A stretch of DNA of 64,000 bases. It comes from Pseudomonadaceae bacterium. Lineage in GTDB: Bacteria > Pseudomonadota > Gammaproteobacteria > Pseudomonadales > Pseudomonadaceae. Under the pieces are notes generated by a model. It was not told the origin of the DNA. It was given only the letters and a program-made list of their open reading frames with translations, and ran no database searches. Position 1 is the first letter of the stretch, and every line of letters starts with the position of its first letter. Made by a program: the position numbers and the translations under genes. Positions 6,198 to 25,669 of this stretch are shown piece after piece. The stretch lies in contig JAUVZY010000001.1 in the NCBI GenBank assembly GCA_030602315.1, positions 1-64,000 on the forward strand, given 5' to 3'.

Positions 6198-7022
6198 ATG
6201 GGCACCCTGTCGGTCAACCAGAACAAACTGCAGAAACGCATTCGCCGTCTGGCCGGGGAGGCCATCACCGACTTCAACATGATCGAGGACGGCGACAAGG
6301 TGATGGTCTGCCTGTCCGGTGGTAAGGACAGCTACACCATGCTCGACGTTCTGCTGTACCTGCAGAAGGTCGCGCCGATCAAGTTCGACGTGGTGGCGGT
6401 GAACATGGACCAGAAGCAGCCGGGCTTTCCCGAGCACGTGCTGCCCGAGTACCTCAAATCCATCGGGGTCGAGTACCACATCATCGAGAAGGACACCTAC
6501 TCGGTGGTGAAGGAGAAGGTGCCCGAAGGCAAGACCACCTGCTCGCTGTGCTCGCGCCTGCGCCGCGGCACCCTGTACACCTTCGCCGACGAGATCGGCG
6601 CGACCAAGATGGCGCTGGGGCACCACCGCGACGACATCCTGGAAACCTTCTTTCTCAACATGTTCTACGGCGGCACGCTCAAGGCCATGCCGCCCAAGCT
6701 GCTCTCCGACGACGGGCGCAATGTGGTGATCCGCCCGCTGGCCTATTGCAGCGAGGTGGACATCGAGGCCTACGCGAAGATCAAGGAATTCCCGATCATC
6801 CCGTGCAACCTCTGCGGCTCGCAGGAGAACCTGCAGCGCCAGGCGATGAAGGACATGCTGCGCGAATGGGAGCGCCAGTCACCCGGCCGCACCGAAATCA
6901 TGTTCCGCGCCCTGCAGAACGTGCACCCCTCGCAGCTGGCCGACCGCAACCTGTTCGACTTCAAGAGCCTGCGCATCGACGACAACGCCACGCCGCGCTT
7001 CGTCGATGTGATGAACCTGTAA
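6198..7022 (+). CDS. ttcA: tRNA 2-thiocytidine(32) synthetase TtcA
   Basis: 274 residues. TtcA thiolates cytidine 32 in a subset of tRNAs, using ATP and a [4Fe-4S] cluster. The PP-loop motif SGGKDS is at residues 40-45. Two CxxC pairs (CSLC 115-118; CNLC 203-206) supply the cluster ligands. The start ATGGGCACC matches the family N-terminus, and a likely -10 element (TAAAAT) is about 25 bases upstream near 6157. A thiolated C32 also affects decoding, which links it in theme to CmoA/CmoB elsewhere in this window. Confidence 0.96.
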
Positions 7023-7099: not shown

Positions 7100-7188
7100 T
7101 TTGCCAGCTCGCGGACCGGCGGTCGCATCCACCCCTTGCCAGCGCGCCCGGCGCTGGCCTAAGGTTGGGCCATTGCTTGGAGAACCAC

Positions 7189-7317
7189 ATGCCCCTGACC
7201 ACTTCCCACGTTTCGCTGACCGACCGCCTCGCTGCGGCGCTGCGGCGTGCGTGCCCGGTCGTGGCTGGCGTCTCCTATTTCTACGGGTATTGGTTTAGCC
7301 AGCATAGGCGCGCCTGA
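7189..7317 (+). CDS. aromatic-rich leader peptide of DAHP synthase gene
   Basis: A 42-codon ORF with a good ribosome site (GGAGA 6 bases upstream) whose residues 30-36 read YFYGYWF, encoded at 7276-7296: three Tyr, two Phe and one Trp codon within seven. A strong intrinsic terminator begins 47 bases after its stop, and the next full gene is a class I DAHP synthase, the first enzyme of aromatic amino acid synthesis. This is the classic layout of ribosome-mediated transcription attenuation: stalling at aromatic codons would prevent the terminator from forming. The N-terminal 29 residues are less informative. The attenuator function is an inference from the arrangement. Confidence 0.75.
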   Translation: MPLTTSHVSLTDRLAAALRRACPVVAGVSYFYGYWFSQHRRA

Positions 7318-7363
7318 TGCCCGCAGGCGGCCTTGTAGACAGGGTCGCCGCCAGAGAGTCATC

Positions 7364-7403
7364 AAACCCCCGGTCGGCCACCCGACCGGGGGTTTTGTTT
7401 TTT
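7364..7403 (+). terminator. attenuator terminator upstream of DAHP synthase
   Basis: An 11-bp GC-rich stem (CCCCCGGTCGG / CCGACCGGGGG) with a 3-base loop, preceded by AAA and followed by TTTTGTTTTTT. It lies between the aromatic leader peptide and the enzyme gene, so it must be read through for enzyme expression. The position and strength support conditional termination. Confidence 0.85.
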
Positions 7404-7433
7404 CGGCCCGAAAAGGGCGTTCACACCGAGGAA

Positions 7434-7526
7434 ATGCACATGTACGACTACCGCCGCTACCGCGACACCTGGCGATTTACCGGCCGCATCCGCGCCTCGA
7501 CAACCCGACACCGAACACAAGACTGA
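7434..7526 (+). CDS. second small Tyr/Arg-rich ORF before DAHP synthase
   Basis: A 30-codon ORF beginning MHMYDYRRYRDTWRF, located after the attenuator terminator and ending 37 bases before the DAHP synthase start. A GAGG-like ribosome site precedes it. Its first 15 codons include three Tyr, one Trp and one Phe, as well as many Arg. It may be a second-level leader that couples translation of the downstream gene to aromatic or arginine charging, or a chance ORF. An alternative start is the ATG two codons later at 7440. Confidence 0.45.
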   Translation: MHMYDYRRYRDTWRFTGRIRASTTRHRTQD

Positions 7527-7563
7527 TGCTGCGCGGCGCTGCCGCCGGCCAAGGAACGCCACG

Positions 7564-8628
7564 ATGACCACCGTATCTGCTTGTCCCCAATCCGTTTCGC
7601 GCCCTGTGCCGGCCCGGCGCAGTGCCGAGCCGTTGCCCAGCCCGGCCGTGCTGCGCCAGCGGCTGCCGCTTGACGAGTCGCTTTCGGAAAAAGTCCACGC
7701 GGACCGCGCGGCGATCCGCGCCGTGCTCGATGGGCAGGACGACCGCCTCTTGGTGGTGGTCGGGCCCTGCTCGCTGCACGAGGCCGACTCCGCCCTCGAA
7801 TATGCCGCGCGATTGGCCGAGCTGGCGCCACAGGTGGACGACCAGCTGCTGCTGGTGATGCGCGCCTACGTGGAAAAGCCGCGCACCACCGTCGGCTGGA
7901 AGGGGCTGGTCTACGATCCGCACCTGGACGGCTCGGGCGACATGGCCGAGGGCCTGCGCGTTTCGCGGCGGCTGATGCTGCAGATGCTCGAGCTGGGGCT
8001 GCCACTGGCCACGGAGCTCCTGCAGCCGATGGCCGCCGGTTACTTCGACGACCTGCTCGGCTGGGCGGCGATCGGCGCGCGTACCAGCGAATCGCAGATT
8101 CACCGCGAACTGGTCAGCGGCCTCGGCTTGCCGGTGGGCTTCAAGAACGGCACCGATGGCAGCTTCGGTATCGCCTGCGACGCGATGCGCTCGGCGGCCC
8201 ATGGGCACCGGCATTTCGGCATGGACGAACTGGGCCACCCGGCGCTGGTGGAAACCCGCGGCAACGCCGACACGCATCTGGTGCTGCGCGGTGGCCACGC
8301 TGGGCCGAACCATGACCCGGCCAGCGTCGCCGCCGCGCGTGCCGCGCTGCACAAGCAGGGCCTCGCCGCGCGGATCATGGTCGACTGCAGCCACGCCAAC
8401 AGCGGCAAGGACCCGCATCGTCAGCCCGAGGTGCTCGCCAGCGTGCTCGATCAGCGCCTGGCCGGCGAGGCCAGCCTGCGTGGCGTGATGCTCGAAAGCT
8501 ACCTGTTCGATGGCAGTCAGCCGCTGTCGGGCAAGCTGCAATACGGCGTGTCGATCACCGACGGCTGCCTGGGCTGGGCTTCTACCGAGCGTCTGCTGCG
8601 CGAGGCCGCCGACCGCCTGCGCGGGTAA
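7564..8628 (+). CDS. class I 3-deoxy-7-phosphoheptulonate (DAHP) synthase
   Basis: 354 residues. Condenses phosphoenolpyruvate and erythrose 4-phosphate, the first committed step of the shikimate pathway. Family motifs are clear: VVVGPCSLHE, MRAYVEKPRTTVGWKG, LPVGFKNGTDG, LRGG and the metal/substrate region MVDCSHANSGKD. The length and sequence match the AroF/AroG/AroH type, but the feedback-sensitive isozyme cannot be assigned by eye. The upstream leader with clustered Tyr/Phe/Trp codons and terminator implies attenuation by aromatic amino acid supply. No other aromatic genes are adjacent. Confidence 0.95.
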   Translation: MTTVSACPQSVSRPVPARRSAEPLPSPAVLRQRLPLDESLSEKVHADRAAIRAVLDGQDDRLLVVVGPCSLHEADSALEYAARLAELAPQVDDQLLLVMRAYVEKPRTTVGWKGLVYDPHLDGSGDMAEGLRVSRRLMLQMLELGLPLATELLQPMAAGYFDDLLGWAAIGARTSESQIHRELVSGLGLPVGFKNGTDGSFGIACDAMRSAAHGHRHFGMDELGHPALVETRGNADTHLVLRGGHAGPNHDPASVAAARAALHKQGLAARIMVDCSHANSGKDPHRQPEVLASVLDQRLAGEASLRGVMLESYLFDGSQPLSGKLQYGVSITDGCLGWASTERLLREAADRLRG

Positions 8629-21074: not shown

Positions 21075-21167
<93 letters not shown>

Positions 21168-21219
21168 GCATTACAGGGTCGCCCGGCATCGGTTGGGCGA
21201 AGTGAAGTCAGGGGAATCC

Positions 21220-21247
21220 TTGACCGAACATCGAAGATCCCTATAAT
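21220..21247 (+). promoter_or_regulatory. promoter for tRNA-Arg pair
   Basis: TTGACC (21220-21225), 16-base spacer, TATAAT (21242-21247), ending 13 bases before the first tRNA-Arg. A near-consensus sigma-70 promoter. Confidence 0.75.
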
Positions 21248-21260
21248 GCGCACCCTCAGC

Positions 21261-21337
21261 GCACTCATAGCTCAGCTGGATAGAGTACCCGGCTACGAAC
21301 CGGGCGGTCGGAGGTTCGAATCCTCCTGAGTGCGCCA
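21261..21337 (+). tRNA. tRNA-Arg (anticodon ACG), copy 1
   Basis: 77 bases with CCA. Acceptor stem GCACTCA / TGAGTGC; anticodon loop CTACGAA gives ACG (decoded as ICG). Identical to the second copy 47 bases downstream, implying tandem duplication. Confidence 0.97.
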
Positions 21338-21344
21338 TCTGCTA

Positions 21345-21377
21345 ATACCCAAGCAGATGATAAAGATGCTTGGGTAT
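21345..21377 (+). repeat. inverted repeat between two tRNA-Arg genes
   Basis: Perfect 10-bp arms ATACCCAAGC (21345-21354) and GCTTGGGTAT (21368-21377), 13-base loop. Probably forms a spacer hairpin in the tRNA precursor, a possible RNase E or RNase III processing signal. No T-tract. Confidence 0.6.
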
Positions 21378-21384
21378 GCAACAC

Positions 21385-21461
21385 GCACTCATAGCTCAGC
21401 TGGATAGAGTACCCGGCTACGAACCGGGCGGTCGGAGGTTCGAATCCTCCTGAGTGCGCCA
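21385..21461 (+). tRNA. tRNA-Arg (anticodon ACG), copy 2
   Basis: 77 bases with CCA and the same sequence as the upstream copy. Ends 10 bases before a strong terminator. Confidence 0.97.
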
Positions 21462-21470
21462 TCTCGATAA

Positions 21471-21495
21471 GGCCTGCGGAAACGCAGGCCTTTTT
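21471..21495 (+). terminator. intrinsic terminator of tRNA cluster
   Basis: Stem GGCCTGCG/CGCAGGCC with GAAA tetraloop followed by TTTTT; closes the tRNA transcription unit and lies between it and the convergent DUF4124 gene. Confidence 0.88.
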
Positions 21496-21512
21496 CGTTT
21501 CTGGCTTTTCGG

Positions 21513-21977
21513 CTATTTGCGCGGTACGCAGCCGCGTTCATCGAAGCTCACCACGCGCTTGGGGTCTCGTTCGTAGTGATAGCGCAGCTTCGCGTTGAAG
21601 CCGCTTATCCGGTCCGGTTTGCCTAGCGCACTTTCTACGTCTGCCTGACTCATCCCGGGGCGCACCTGCCGGCGCAGCACGGCTGTTCGGCGTTCCCGGT
21701 CCGAGAGCAGATTCCCGCAGCTATCTTCTTTTGCGCCAACGATGGTGATGTCCGCAGCTCGGGCTGGTGTCGGCCGCTCGCGGCGAACGAGCGGTGTCGG
21801 TGAGTCGGTGCCGGGCAGTGGGCTGTGCGCGGTCTGGGGCTCGCCGCGCTGTTCGATGGGGCAGCCTTGCTGCGAGAAGGTGAGGTGGCCGGCCTGATCC
21901 TCGCAGCGAAATACAGTCGCCGCCTGGCAGGGCGGTGCAAAGGCGAGCAGCAGGGCAATGCAATGGTTTGACTTCAT
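21513..21977 (-). CDS. DUF4124-type exported protein with SmpA/OmlA-like tail
   Basis: 154 residues. Signal peptide MKSNHCIALLLAFAPPCQA, then a short DUF4124-like domain (ATVFRCEDQAGHLTFSQQGCP) with two Cys that may form a disulfide, a Pro/Thr-rich linker, and a C-terminal segment VRPGMSQADVESALGKPDRI resembling the BamE/SmpA-OmlA fold. Periplasmic location is predicted. The function is unknown. Convergent with the tRNA cluster. Confidence 0.75.
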   Translation of the reverse strand: MKSNHCIALLLAFAPPCQAATVFRCEDQAGHLTFSQQGCPIEQRGEPQTAHSPLPGTDSPTPLVRRERPTPARAADITIVGAKEDSCGNLLSDRERRTAVLRRQVRPGMSQADVESALGKPDRISGFNAKLRYHYERDPKRVVSFDERGCVPRK

Positions 21978-22274
21978 CTAGGTCCTCCTTGACATGGCTG
22001 GTGCGGGCCTGATGGCTCCAGCGCCGATTCGCTGCGAGTCACGCTGCTGCAATCTTCAACGATTAGCTTCGCTGGGCGCGCTAAGCCGTTGTTCTCCAGT
22101 GTGGTGACGCCAATTCGCGGTTGAGATGGTATCATTGCCGCTATCCGCCCGCCGGGCCCCTGGATCGACCCTCATGGACTTACCCAGTAGTCGCTCGATA
22201 TCTCTCTTTTCCGATCACACCTCTGACTGATTGACCCTCTGGCGCACCCTCTCGGCTGGAGGGTGGAGTGCGCC
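21978..22274. other. intergenic region between DUF4124 gene and mgtE
   Basis: About 300 bases between divergent genes, so it must carry two promoters. No ORF or clear riboswitch seen. A hairpin-forming stretch CTCTGGCGCACCCTCTCGGCTGGAGGGT near 22237-22264 lies immediately before mgtE. I could not recognise a magnesium-sensing M-box. Confidence 0.5.
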
Positions 22275-23708
22275 ATGACTGAAGCAGAAGCAAGAAAAAC
22301 GCAGGAAAGCCTGCAGGACCGCCTGGCGCAGGTGGTTGAGCTGCTTGAGCGCTACACGCTCGCAGGCGAAATCTCCCAGGCCCGCGAAGGGCAGCCGGAT
22401 ATCACGGAAGCCCCTCAGGATATCCTGGCCGATCTACAGCAGCGGCTAAACGCGCTGCACCCTGCCGATGTCGCCCATATTCTCGAGGCGCTTCCTCTGG
22501 AGCAGCGTCTTGCTGTTTGGCACCTGGTGCGTGCCGAGCGTGACGGCGACATCCTGCTCGAGGTTTCCGACGCTGTTCGCGAGACCCTGATCGCCGACAT
22601 GGACGATCAGGAGATTCTTGCTGCTGCCAAGGAGATGGATGCTGACGAGCTCGCCGACCTGGCGCCGGAGCTTCCGCGTGATGTCGTCCATGAGCTCATG
22701 GAAAGCCTCGATGCCCAGCAGCGCGAGCGCGTACGTTCGGCGCTTTCGTACGAAGAGGATCAGGTCGGTGCACTGATGGATTTCCAGATGGTTACCATCC
22801 GCGAGGATGTCAGCCTGGAAGTCGTGCTGCGGTACCTGCGGCGGCTGAAGGAATTGCCGGGACATACTGACAAGCTGTTCGTGGTTGATTATGACGGTGC
22901 GCTGAAGGGTGTTCTGCCAATCAAGCGCCTGCTGGTCAACGACCCGGAAAAACAGGTGGCCGAAGTGATGGCCAGCGATCCGGTAACCTTTCACCCTGAC
23001 GAGGATGCCTACGAAGCGGCTCAAGCATTCGAACGCTATGACCTCGTGTCATCGCCGGTGGTGGACAAAAACGGCAAGCTGATCGGACGCCTGACCATCG
23101 ACGAGATCGTTGACCTGATCCGCGAGGAGAGCGAGAGCGAAGTGCTGAATATGGCCGGTCTTCGGGAGGAGGAAGACATCTTCGCCTCCGTATGGAAGTC
23201 GGTGCACAACCGCTGGGCTTGGCTGGCAATCAATCTGGTCACGGCATTCGTCGCTTCGCGCGTGATCGGATTGTTCGATGGTGCGATCGAGAAGCTGGTG
23301 GCGCTGGCGGCGCTGATGCCGATTGTTGCCGGCATTGGCGGAAATTCGGGCAACCAGACCATCACCATGATCGTCCGCGCCATGGCGCTGGATCAGGTGT
23401 CCATTTCCAACACGGTGCGTCTGTTGCGCAAGGAACTCGGCGTTGCGCTCGTCAACGGCCTGGTGTGGGGTGGCGTAATCGGCCTGGTAGCCTGGGGGCT
23501 TTACGAAAACTGGGCCTTGGGCGTGGTCATGATGGCGGCAATGACGCTCAATCTGCTGTTGGCGGCGCTGATGGGGGTGTTGATCCCGATGACCCTGGCA
23601 AGACTGGGGCGCGATCCGGCCATGGGGGCAAGCGTGATGATAACGGCCATGACCGATAGTGGCGGTTTTTTCATCTTCCTTGGGCTCGCCACGATTTTCC
23701 TGATGTGA
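22275..23708 (+). CDS. mgtE: magnesium transporter MgtE
   Basis: 477 residues. N-terminal acidic MgtE-N domain (superhelical, about residues 40-140), paired CBS domains (about 145-275, including VVDYDGALKGVLPIKRLLV and VVDKNGKLIGRLTID), a connecting helix, then five transmembrane helices with PIVAGIGGNSGNQT, the pore-lining motif of the family. Dimeric inner-membrane Mg2+ channel gated by Mg2+ binding to the cytosolic domains. ATG at 22275 with GGAG upstream is chosen; a GTG four codons earlier is possible. Ends before a strong terminator. Confidence 0.96.
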   Translation: MTEAEARKTQESLQDRLAQVVELLERYTLAGEISQAREGQPDITEAPQDILADLQQRLNALHPADVAHILEALPLEQRLAVWHLVRAERDGDILLEVSDAVRETLIADMDDQEILAAAKEMDADELADLAPELPRDVVHELMESLDAQQRERVRSALSYEEDQVGALMDFQMVTIREDVSLEVVLRYLRRLKELPGHTDKLFVVDYDGALKGVLPIKRLLVNDPEKQVAEVMASDPVTFHPDEDAYEAAQAFERYDLVSSPVVDKNGKLIGRLTIDEIVDLIREESESEVLNMAGLREEEDIFASVWKSVHNRWAWLAINLVTAFVASRVIGLFDGAIEKLVALAALMPIVAGIGGNSGNQTITMIVRAMALDQVSISNTVRLLRKELGVALVNGLVWGGVIGLVAWGLYENWALGVVMMAAMTLNLLLAALMGVLIPMTLARLGRDPAMGASVMITAMTDSGGFFIFLGLATIFLM

Positions 23709-23722
23709 TGGACCCACACATG

Positions 23723-23749
23723 AAAAAGCCGGCGTTGAGCCGGCTTTTT
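23723..23749 (+). terminator. bidirectional terminator mgtE / amrZ
   Basis: AAAAAGCCGGC ... GCCGGCTTTTT, 11-bp stem and 5-base loop between two convergent genes. Symmetric A/T tails let it act on both strands. Confidence 0.9.
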
Positions 23750-23770
23750 CGTTTGCAGCGACGCATATGA

Positions 23771-24097
23771 TCAGTCGGCGTCAGTCGCGCTCTCGACATC
23801 CTGGGCGATCAGAGAGATCAGTGCGTTCTGCTGGCGCCTAGAGAGTTGTCGGAAGCGCTGCAGCAGCTCTCTTTCGTGCAGGCTCAGCTCGGGGCTGTCG
23901 AGCCGAAGAGCGACCTCCCCTTCGAGCGCGCCCTCCTGGAGGAGGCTTTGCTCGAGACGAGCGATGATCTCGGAATTCATGCTGCGATGATGGTTGCGAG
24001 CAACCTCGGCAATGCGATCGCGCATGCCATCGGGTAGCCGGACCACGAACTTGTCAGCCGTGCGGCTGGAATAAATTGCCTGTTTCATTGGGCGCAT
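23771..24097 (-). CDS. amrZ: AmrZ/AlgZ ribbon-helix-helix regulator
   Basis: 108 residues, same length as P. aeruginosa AmrZ. Start [21 protein letters not shown] is the flexible N-terminus plus the RHH beta strand; the helix-turn region [26 protein letters not shown] follows, then a tetramerisation tail ([25 protein letters not shown]). In P. aeruginosa AmrZ activates alginate genes downstream of AlgU, and represses flagella and Psl. Here AlgU lies about 11 kb away in the same window. Promoter control is not apparent from sequence alone. Confidence 0.95.
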
Positions 24098-24375
24098 AAT
24101 TAACCGGTTAGTCATTTGGATGATGGCATTGCGGGTGCAACTGTCACCGGTCTGACCATCAAGCCGACACACCGTTCCGTAGTCACGGACCCGATGGCGA
24201 TTTGATGCCTGTCCTGTTGAGAATTATGCGACTACAGGCCGCCCCATGAAAGCGTTTTGCCATGCCGTGCGTCGCCTAAATACCTGACCTGGGTCAAAGG
24301 TCACGTTTTGACCCCCGAGCTGCCCCTTCCCGAGAGGCGTCTAGCAACGCCTCATTCGCAAGTAGGGGCCACCGG
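24098..24375. other. amrZ upstream region with inverted repeat
   Basis: No ORF recognised. It contains a perfect inverted repeat GGGTCAAA (24291-24298) and TTTGACCC (24307-24314) with an 8-base spacer, possibly an operator. The repeat is 194 bases upstream of the amrZ start and downstream of the small membrane gene's stop. Confidence 0.5.
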
Positions 24376-24558
24376 TTAGCGCAGGATTGGGTCGAATTTG
24401 AAACGCCGTCCCGCCAGTAGGGCAAAAAATGACAGAACGGCAAAAACGATCAGCCCCGCCTTGCTGGCGGTAGCCCAGAGGCCTGTCATTGGAAACATGG
24501 CAACCAGGACAGCGCAGATCGCGGTAGCGCTAAGCAAGCAAATTGCAGTCTTGGACAT
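24376..24558 (-). CDS. small two-helix membrane protein (60 aa)
   Basis: 60 residues from MSKTAICLLS to FDPILR, too short for many annotations. Two hydrophobic segments (about residues 5-22 and 32-49) with a positive C-terminus (AGRRFKFDP) predict a small inner-membrane hairpin, loosely like DUF1328-type proteins. A GGAAG ribosome site precedes the ATG at 24558. Function unknown; low-level confidence that it is translated. Confidence 0.55.
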   Translation of the reverse strand: MSKTAICLLSATAICAVLVAMFPMTGLWATASKAGLIVFAVLSFFALLAGRRFKFDPILR

Positions 24559-24598
24559 GTTTGATCTTCCCGAGAAAGCGGCGTAGCGGATTTGTCCT

Positions 24599-24796
24599 TC
24601 AGAACACCCAGCGCTGTGCTGAAGCGGGTCTGACGATCGACGTTTCACCCGTGTTGTGAAATTCGGCGCGAGAGGTTTGCAAGATCCTGGGCGTGGGCTC
24701 CAGGTCCCTCGAGGTTGCGGATTCGCCGTGAGCCGAGATGTGACCGGCAGCGGTAGCCAAGAATGTTGCGCCGAGAAAAAGAACTGCGTGAGGCAT
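24599..24796 (-). CDS. putative small secreted protein (65 aa)
   Basis: 65 residues. The start MPHAVLFLGATFLATAAGHISA looks like a signal peptide, with a GGAGA ribosome site 6 bases upstream. The mature part (about 45 residues) is polar and has no recognisable domain. Located directly upstream of the 60-residue membrane protein in the same direction; both may be an orphan unit. Could also be spurious. Confidence 0.35.
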   Translation of the reverse strand: MPHAVLFLGATFLATAAGHISAHGESATSRDLEPTPRILQTSRAEFHNTGETSIVRPASAQRWVF

Positions 24797-25140
24797 GGGC
24801 GTCTCCGTCCGCTCAAATTGAAAAGGAACTATGGCGAACATTGCAGGCTCTGTGCCACGGGGCTTGCCTAAAAAAATACCTTAAAAATCAATGCGTTAAG
24901 GTATTAATCATGGGGGTGCGCATTGCGCCTTGCACGAAGGGGTGAATGGCGCGTTGCATTTTGCATGGCGCCTGAAAAGGCTGTTGTCTTGCCGCGTATG
25001 GCCTGCGCATCTAGACCGGCTCCCGTGGCAAAACGGTCCCCGAGGGTCGCCGCATTCTGCCCTTGCAAGCCGCTCTGCCTTGCATGACAAACGCCATCGA
25101 GCCCGCTAACATGCGCAGCCGTTTGATGGTCACGCCGTTT
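24797..25140. other. 344-base gap with AT-rich inverted repeat
   Basis: No gene supported. It holds a perfect AATACCTTAA / TTAAGGTATT inverted repeat at 24875-24905, right after a run of A's, and unusually AT-rich flanks for this genome. The later part contains the tRNA-Arg(CCU) promoter (possible -35 TGACAA near 25086 and -10 TAACAT near 25108). Confidence 0.6.
24875..24905. repeat. AT-rich perfect inverted repeat
   Basis: AATACCTTAA (24875-24884) and TTAAGGTATT (24896-24905) separated by 11 bases. Could be a regulator binding site or terminator-like hairpin. It has no T-tract on either strand, but A's precede it on the plus strand, giving a T-run for transcripts leaving on the minus strand. 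Confidence 0.6.
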
Positions 25141-25217
25141 GTCCCAGTAGCTCAATTGGATAGAGCGTCCCCCTCCTAAGGGGAAGGTTGCAGGTTCAAT
25201 TCCTGCCTGGGACACCA
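25141..25217 (+). tRNA. tRNA-Arg (anticodon CCU)
   Basis: 77 bases with CCA. Acceptor stem GTCCCAG/CTGGGAC, discriminator A, anticodon loop CTCCTAA gives CCU for the rare AGG codon. tRNA genes of this type are frequent integration sites for mobile elements, but no integrase is present here. Confidence 0.97.
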
Positions 25218-25226
25218 GATATATCC

Positions 25227-25261
25227 AGCACCTGGAGCCTTTGGTTCCAGGTGCTTTTTTA
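25227..25261 (+). terminator. intrinsic terminator after tRNA-Arg(CCU)
   Basis: Stem AGCACCTGGA/TCCAGGTGCT (10 bp) followed by a T-run, 10 bases after the tRNA end. Confidence 0.9.
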
Positions 25262-25595
25262 TTGTGCGTAGTGCTGTCGCCTCGAAGACCAAGAGAGTGC
25301 CGCCGCCGAGCGCTGAGTTGCATGAGCGCTGCTTGCTCCTTGAGGTGATCTGAGAGGGCCCCTGAGGACCTGGTCTTGCGAGATCAGTATGCGATGTCGG
25401 CAAAGTCGCCGATGAAATCGTCAGCAGGTGCAGAAAATGCGGAGGTGCTTGCGGCGGTTGTCTGGCTCGACTGAGCGAATGCAGGGGTTGGCACGGTCTT
25501 TCGACTAAGGGTAGGTCCCGAAAAAATTCGGATTACCCCGCGGCAGGCGGGCACTTCCTCGCCGAGACGGCGATTGGCGAAGCGCGCAGGAGAGA
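25262..25595. other. gap between tRNA-Arg(CCU) and tRNA-Gly(CCC)
   Basis: No confident gene. On the minus strand, an open frame of about 60 codons (ending ...SAPADDFIGDFADIAY at about 25387) begins within or near the tRNA-Gly; it has no good start and no recognised homologue, so it may be a gene remnant or chance. Confidence 0.5.
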
Positions 25596-25669
25596 TGGAG
25601 CGGGCGAAGGGAATCGAACCCTCGTCATGAGCTTGGGAAGCTCAGGTAATGCCATTATACGACGCCCGC
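25596..25669 (-). tRNA. tRNA-Gly (anticodon CCC)
   Basis: 74 bases with CCA on the minus strand. Acceptor stem GCGGGCG / CGCCCGC, discriminator T, anticodon loop TTCCCAA gives anticodon CCC for GGG codons. Confidence 0.96.

Follow-up and report, generated by a model that had tools for sequence, protein, structure and literature searches.

The segment at positions 7136-7402 of the window (the whole stretch of 64,000 nucleotides of Pseudomonadaceae DNA analysed here) is, judging from its sequence, very probably a ribosome-mediated transcription attenuator of the DAHP synthase gene encoded downstream, and the RNA known as the P15 'sRNA' would be its terminated product. The leader most likely lets the cell make DAHP synthase mainly when it is short of aromatic amino acids. 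With a confidence that stops short of even, we also propose that this gene is under double control by the same signal on one transcript: by a his-type attenuator with Tyr, Phe and Trp codons, and then by a second leader ORF whose Trp-Arg-Phe motif (WRF, with CGA as the Arg codon) precedes, in many relatives, a compensating pseudoknot or two-hairpin switch located within its own coding sequence. New, as far as our searches reach, are the identity of the DAHP synthase leader with P15, the occurrence of a Tyr/Phe/Trp leader in a his-type six-segment RNA, and the presence, in tandem, of a second leader that has a compensating structure of its own.

Organization of the DAHP synthase locus

The features of the locus, in which segments A to E are putative pairing segments of the leader RNA, are the following:

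7136-7165, + strand, promoter-like site: TTGCCA at 7136-7141, an 18-base spacer and TAAGGT at 7160-7165
7179-7182, + strand, Shine-Dalgarno GGAG of leader ORF 1, six bases 5' of its ATG
7189-7317, + strand, leader ORF 1: 42 codons, ATG at 7189, stop codon at 7315-7317
7272-7392, + strand, match to Rfam RF00627, 'Pseudomonas sRNA P15': 92.9 bits, gathering score 70
7285-7293, + strand, segment A, GGGUAUUGG: Gly-Tyr-Trp control codons
7310-7322, + strand, segment B, GCGCCUGAUGCCC: spans the stop codon; partner A or C
7324-7332, + strand, segment C, CAGGCGGCC: partner B or D
7342-7352, + strand, segment D, GGGUCGCCGCC: partner C or E
7364-7402, + strand, predicted intrinsic terminator: 14-pair stem at 7364-7395 and T-rich tail TGTTTTTT
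7372-7383, + strand, segment E, GGUCGGCCACCC: end of the terminator 5' arm, loop and first two bases of the 3' arm
7428-7432, + strand, Shine-Dalgarno GAGGA of leader ORF 2
7440-7526, + strand, leader ORF 2: 28 codons, MYDYRRYRDTWRFTGRIRASTTRHRTQD
7470-7478, + strand, WRF codons of leader ORF 2, TGGCGATTT
7533-7545, + strand, hairpin GCGGC-GCT-GCCGC, 3' of leader ORF 2 and 5' of the DAHP synthase ribosome site
7551-7555, + strand, Shine-Dalgarno AAGGA of DAHP synthase
7564-8628, + strand, DAHP synthase (3-deoxy-7-phosphoheptulonate synthase, AroFGH family), 354 aa

A preliminary description of this DNA had reported a 42-codon ORF with a good ribosome site, the aromatic stretch YFYGYWF (three Tyr, two Phe and one Trp), an 11-bp GC-rich stem with a T-run 47 bases after the ORF, and a DAHP synthase gene behind it. 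All of these elements are present. Leader ORF 1 reads MPLTTSHVSLTDRLAAALRRACPVVAGVSYFYGYWFSQHRRA and ends in SYFYGYWFSQHRRA, its aromatic stretch has the composition claimed, and the stem, which begins 47 bases past the last base of the stop codon, extends to 14 pairs, consisting of AAA:UUU and 11 further pairs. The downstream ORF matches NCBIfam PRK12755 and TIGR00034 and Pfam PF00793. The description had missed that the element is Rfam P15 and that leader ORF 2 lies behind the terminator.

The 3' arm of the terminator constitutes a further segment, F, and segment E has two alternative roles, pairing with D as an antiterminator or closing the terminator. Upstream, a gene on the same strand, which we read as encoding a putative TtcA-like protein, ends at 7022, about 340 bases before the terminator. 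GC-rich inverted repeats are found at the place of the 7533-7545 hairpin in most Pseudomonadaceae rows of the alignment, as judged by eye. Neither leader peptide has a match in Pfam or NCBIfam. Elsewhere in the window, Rfam identifies five ordinary tRNA genes at 21075-25669.

Leader ORF 1 and the promoter-like site

The aromatic cluster of leader ORF 1 is far above chance: at least six aromatic residues in seven occur in 1 of the 596 window ORFs of 15-80 codons, and in no ORF of 40 order-1 Markov resamples of the window, each with a mean of 966 such ORFs. Conservation of the frame and of the aromatic codons in related genomes, which had been named in advance as a test of the reading, was borne out, since leader ORF 1 is present in 79 of 79 related loci having upstream sequence (the best 80 DAHP synthase matches minus L100, which lacks it; L, G and C numbers are our handles for loci, genomes and contigs), with its aromatic positions kept. 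GGAG or AGGAG precedes it in 70 of the 79 sequences parsed, the window included.

A larger set of 111 leaders was obtained from 141 sequences tried, with 9 duplicates removed, by means of a search pattern that demands an aromatic core, so that the conservation of Gly-Tyr-Trp-Phe (GYWF) in this set is partly forced, whereas the codons and the preceding positions were free to vary. This pattern missed L094, L100, L103, L113 and L142-L145, and L132 was excluded from the leader set for a mis-parsed terminator. The three positions preceding GYWF, unfixed by the pattern, are aromatic in 89%, 99% and 99% of the 111 leaders; their codons vary among TTT, TTC, TAT and TAC, and Phe and Tyr interchange, both of which are a sign of selection on the residues. 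The codons of the core itself are GGG (108/111), TAT (107/111), TGG (111/111) and TTT (109/111), with TAT and TTT being minor codons that account for 0.22 of Tyr and 0.16 of Phe codons in the window's long ORFs. The Halomonadaceae leaders follow the same design, often ending in ...GYWF.xGVP. The hexamer TTTAGC is found at the end of the Trp-Phe-Ser core in leader ORF 1 and, for most relatives, at the end of the Trp-Arg-Phe-Ser core in leader ORF 2.

The families of several relatives were assigned from sequence. One locus, L098 (Halotalea, Halomonadaceae), was grouped with the Pseudomonadaceae in the pairing, accessibility, codon, swap and covariation counts, and with the Halomonadaceae in the folding of the read-through form and in the counts of ORF 2 stop-start spacing.

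We infer that transcription starts at the promoter-like site before leader ORF 1. The best -35/-10 match 5' of this ORF scores 8 of 12 in the window and, over 79 sequences (the window and 78 loci), 7-9 in 77 and 6 in 2, compared with 5-6 in 191 and 7-8 in 49 of 240 control windows within DAHP synthase. The -35 element starts with TTG in 70 of the 79 sequences, and the distance from the end of the site to the ATG is 23 bases in the window and 23-26 bases in 58 of the 79. A separate promoter scan with a threshold of at least 9/12 gave no hit at this site in the window.

Predicted mutually exclusive helices in the leader RNA

Folding with different ribosome positions suggested the six segments, and the mechanism that we propose for them would work as follows. 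When aromatic tRNAs are charged, the ribosome would reach the stop codon and cover B, which would leave C to pair with D and the terminator E:F to form, ending transcription. A shortage of any one of the three aromatic tRNAs would instead make the ribosome stall at the aromatic cluster and cover A, so that B:C would form, D would pair with the 5' arm and loop of the terminator as an antiterminator, and DAHP synthase would be transcribed. It seems fair to infer a joint sensing of Tyr, Phe and Trp.

These helices were evaluated in an alignment (A1) in which the 111 leaders were reduced to 59 at less than 93% identity. The terminator is kept in it, and the consensus of segment C is CAGGCG(C/G)CC and that of D is GGGUCGCC(A/G)CC. 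Of the cells of this alignment of 59 leaders, 93.0% are paired in the termination form (A:B, C:D, E:F) and 88.0% in the read-through form (B:C, D:E); sliding the partners lowers these values to 35.2-56.0% and 29.5-50.6%, respectively, the structures having been drawn from one aligned sequence and being therefore favoured over their slid versions. Cells changed on both sides number 13 in each form, few because the sequences are nearly fixed, and both numbers lie above all 500 shuffles. The number of pair types was not above chance in 500 shuffles for either form, nor was the number of pairs with double changes in the read-through form (235 of 500 shuffles).

When the stretch occupied by the stalled ribosome was taken out and the RNA was made to end ahead of most of the terminator 3' arm, B:C and D:E were both predicted in 149 of 157 leaders (100 of 108 in Pseudomonadaceae and 49 of 49 in Halomonadaceae), a figure that stands without a shuffle control and to which 19 of 176 leaders, left unparsed, do not contribute. 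The other eight miss the read-through form at the thresholds used.

Several Halomonadaceae have GGCGUGCC:GGCACGCC as their B:C helix. The D:E helix of the family is mostly GGGUUGCC:GGCAACCC or else GGGCUGCC:GGCAGCCC. One D base covaries in this family with a base of the terminator loop (C-G 17, U-A 27, A-U 2, U-G 2, C-A 1 and U-U 2; Fisher p 1e-9 for a C/U by G/A table that ignores relatedness), which argues for their pairing, since the loop has otherwise little reason to track an upstream segment. The same positions show no covariation in Pseudomonadaceae, where a standard pair is present in only 32 of 106 sequences and the D:E helix depends on flanking triplets that hardly vary. Swapping partners among the distinct D:E types gave weak results, with the observed pairing reached in 367 of 5000 swaps overall, 142 of 5000 when counting Watson-Crick pairs only, and 397 of 5000 within Halomonadaceae. 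Helix A:B was not evident in the Halomonadaceae folded.

The covariation check proposed in the preliminary description came out in part: the exclusive helices are kept and one antiterminator pair covaries in Halomonadaceae, but does not do so in Pseudomonadaceae. An antiterminator that excludes the terminator, and that could be selected by the position of the ribosome, is predicted and conserved. Together with the conserved leader ORF 1 and terminator, these predicted helices lend support to the attenuation before DAHP synthase that had been suggested at the outset.

Rfam P15 and its association with DAHP synthase

The match to RF00627 in the window runs over the whole model and comprises the last codons of leader ORF 1, its stop codon and the terminator stem. 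P15 was found in 246 of 298 genomes of the window's family, 239 of them above the cut-off, and in none of 14 control genomes. DAHP synthase lies downstream on the same strand in 59 of 60 P15 loci (the best 30 by match and 30 from genomes picked for variety), the exception being a sub-threshold match of 28 bits, so that P15 is most likely the prematurely terminated leader of DAHP synthase.

The window's genome encodes two DAHP synthases, the second of which (L159, at G000:C19:20394-21401) is 52% identical and has no leader; two genomes of the same genus, G001 and G002, have only the L159-type enzyme. Among 13 P15-less genomes searched for DAHP synthase, 12 contain only the paralogue, at 49-52% identity, and one gave no match. 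A GYWF leader was found upstream of the other paralogue in 0 of 13 regions, and 11 of these 13 have no ORF with four aromatic residues in eight. The two that passed this loose filter, L149 with one ORF and L158 with two in AT-rich sequence, lack the GYWF core; for one of the short ORFs of L158, MLLSISFNYYLMDFLCA, chance is a likely explanation in sequence so rich in AT. The leader and the P15-associated paralogue appear to go together.

The Rfam model of P15 is too narrow. Its scores stay below the cut-off in L141-L144, one genus plus L141, and in each of four Halomonadaceae loci (L105, L111, L160 and L198) that were scanned. The leaders of L141-L144, with cores AYFGYWF or YFYAYWF, look genuine, and each has a DAHP synthase downstream.

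P15 belongs to the sRNAs that Livny et al. detected in P. aeruginosa and was not found again in PMC2375449. Among the matches listed in our search of the open-licence literature, we found neither a link between P15 and DAHP synthase nor a description of these leaders. An alternative that must be weighed is that P15 is mainly the gene of a trans-acting sRNA, located before DAHP synthase by chance and with the terminator as its 3' end. Rfam does file it as a gene, and its level was raised in an hfq mutant of P. fluorescens (PMC5627042, a 2017 paper that calls its function unknown) and lowered on phage infection in one study (PMC10215021). However, the same-strand DAHP synthase behind all but one of the 60 loci, the overlap with a conserved aromatic ORF, and the covariation of the terminator loop with an upstream segment in Halomonadaceae make this alternative improbable. 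The terminated leader may in addition act in trans, by analogy with Sinorhizobium, where a trp attenuator RNA reportedly does so. The peptide of that leader is the topic of PMC7298713. Even less credible is that the terminator ends the transcription of the upstream TtcA-like gene and leader ORF 1 is incidental, since, even though that gene is on the same strand and ends nearby, leader ORF 1 and its ribosome site are conserved, a promoter-like site stands ahead of them and the alternative helices are kept. With P15 likely being the leader of an attenuator, it may be possible to interpret the P15 signals of Pseudomonas RNA-seq data as attenuation of DAHP synthase.

A second aromatic leader behind the terminator

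Leader ORF 2 would be present on the read-through transcript alone, provided that no promoter exists besides that ahead of leader ORF 1. It probably adds control at the level of translation. Leader ORF 2 is found in 75 of the 79 related loci, with a Shine-Dalgarno-like motif before all 75 parsed, and by pattern in 58 of 70 further Halomonadaceae loci, with misses that span more than one lineage. The four of the 79 without it belong to Salinicola (L099, L101, L102 and L106); these keep leader ORF 1 and the terminator, have the gene closer, and represent a natural one-leader version. Up to and including WRF, leader ORF 2 has a mean of 6.3 aromatic residues (3-9). Trp-Arg-Phe is nearly fixed, and 128 of 129 sequences have the rare CGA as the Arg codon between Trp and Phe (in the long ORFs of the window, CGA makes up 2.9% of Arg codons), a count not fully forced by the Halomonadaceae search pattern, which fixed CGN and mostly TTT in WRF.

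The distribution of leader ORF 2 seems to follow the same two families. A profile search of the order matched 61 of 293 genomes at E up to 0.05. All matches below 1e-4 belong to the window's family or to putative Halomonadaceae, and a further member of the former matched at 2.4e-4; the two borderline matches in other families (L247 and L248) have no DAHP synthase motif in the locus sequence examined. A pattern search of the class gave 2 of 369 genomes, of which L160 is genuine and L161 lies within apparently unrelated coding sequence, and this count is no measure of spread because the pattern does not fit the short type of ORF 2. Leader ORF 2 is without an Rfam match, both in the window, at E up to 5, and in the seven loci scanned, at the cut-off.

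Many of these ORFs have a structure of their own. In 101 of the 129 sequences, an eight-pair stem, X, starts five bases past the codon following WRF, and its loop (GCC-A/G-CC) is joined by a six-pair stem, Y, to GGUGGC behind X. The remaining 28 comprise 25 short types without X, namely the window, Stutzerimonas and other Pseudomonadaceae, plus L109, L206 and L210. The X stems differ widely, as in GCUGGCGG:CCGCCGGC and GGCAGCGG:CCGCUGCC, and their 29 distinct arm pairs are paired at 94.8% of positions versus 81.3% when swapped (0 of 2000 swaps reach the observed value), a percentage biased by the choice of the 101 for at least 5/7 pairs. For the 14 distinct arm pairs of Y, the corresponding values are 84.5% versus 74.2% (1 of 2000). 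Both stems show compensating changes and, since they cross, they would form a pseudoknot or exclude each other; the data fit both an H-type pseudoknot and two alternative hairpins. In ORF 2 of the long type (e.g., L110 and L114), the X loop contains CACCUCC or CGCCUCC, which we take to resemble the anti-Shine-Dalgarno end of 16S rRNA and which might mask a ribosome site. A fusion of leader ORF 2 to DAHP synthase by frameshifting was rejected, as the frame offset differs among loci.

Two mechanisms could account for the action of leader ORF 2, and we rate them about equal. The first one, which we regard as possible with some reserve, is coupling, where ribosomes finishing leader ORF 2 would start the enzyme, and the codons and helices would set the rate of this process or protect the transcript from Rho. 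The Shine-Dalgarno-like motif before every parsed ORF 2 fits this mechanism, and in 45 of 64 Halomonadaceae the stop codon overlaps the assigned DAHP synthase start or lies at most 7 bases before it. In the 65 Pseudomonadaceae, however, the gap amounts to 28-50 bases and in most of them contains a GC-rich hairpin, and starvation would lower the amount of enzyme, an odd sign for a biosynthetic gene.

The second one, which remains rather doubtful, is translational attenuation as in ermC, where a ribosome stalled at Trp-Arg-Phe would free the DAHP synthase ribosome site. It would agree with the near fixation of WRF and with the compensating X and Y directly downstream in many relatives. In foldings that ignore pseudoknots, done on 66 sequences (Pseudomonadaceae and L098), the ribosome site became more accessible on stalling, by over 0.1, in 15 and less accessible in 2, but the mean predicted access moved only from 0.45 to 0.49 in these 66 and from 0.41 to 0.42 in 63 Halomonadaceae, where access rose by more than 0.1 in 9 and fell in 7; there is no general effect. 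The tight stop-start spacing in Halomonadaceae also counts against this mechanism and suggests coupling instead. Whichever of them applies, leader ORF 2 raises the question of why there are two tandem sensors of the same amino acids, one on each side of the terminator.

Comparison with known attenuators

The closest architecture is that of the his operon leader (RF00514), which has six segments, A-F, with A:B, C:D and E:F in the termination form and B:C and D:E in the read-through form. The DAHP synthase leader shares with it the six segments and a leader peptide with control codons, and differs from it in that those codons are for His there, and for Tyr, Phe and Trp, before DAHP synthase, here. 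The window scores 25.6 bits with the Rfam His_leader model, below its cut-off of 49.

The trp, pheA and ilvGMEDA attenuators likewise have a leader peptide with codons for the end products of the pathway. The ilvGMEDA leader is multivalent and senses several branched-chain amino acids, for which reason mixed codons as such are not new; the trp and pheA attenuators use fewer helices. We know of no attenuator of the trp, pheA or ilvGMEDA type in which the terminator is followed by another leader carrying the same codons.

Before DAHP synthase genes, attenuation of E. coli aroF was hypothesized earlier, as cited in the available part of PMC8632094, which also presents the uORFC-13-1 motif before Acholeplasma aroF, a leader ORF beside a terminator proposed to sense Phe. 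This motif resembles the leader described here in having a leader ORF and a terminator before a DAHP synthase gene, and differs from it in phylum and sequence, in sensing Phe only and, as far as that part of the source goes, in having no second leader described.

The last comparison is with RF00627 itself. P15, filed as an sRNA gene, is the same element as the leader in the window, read here as a cis-acting leader. This reading provides a likely function for a family called of unknown function in PMC5627042, and suggests a mode of control for the entry step of aromatic synthesis in Pseudomonadaceae and Halomonadaceae.
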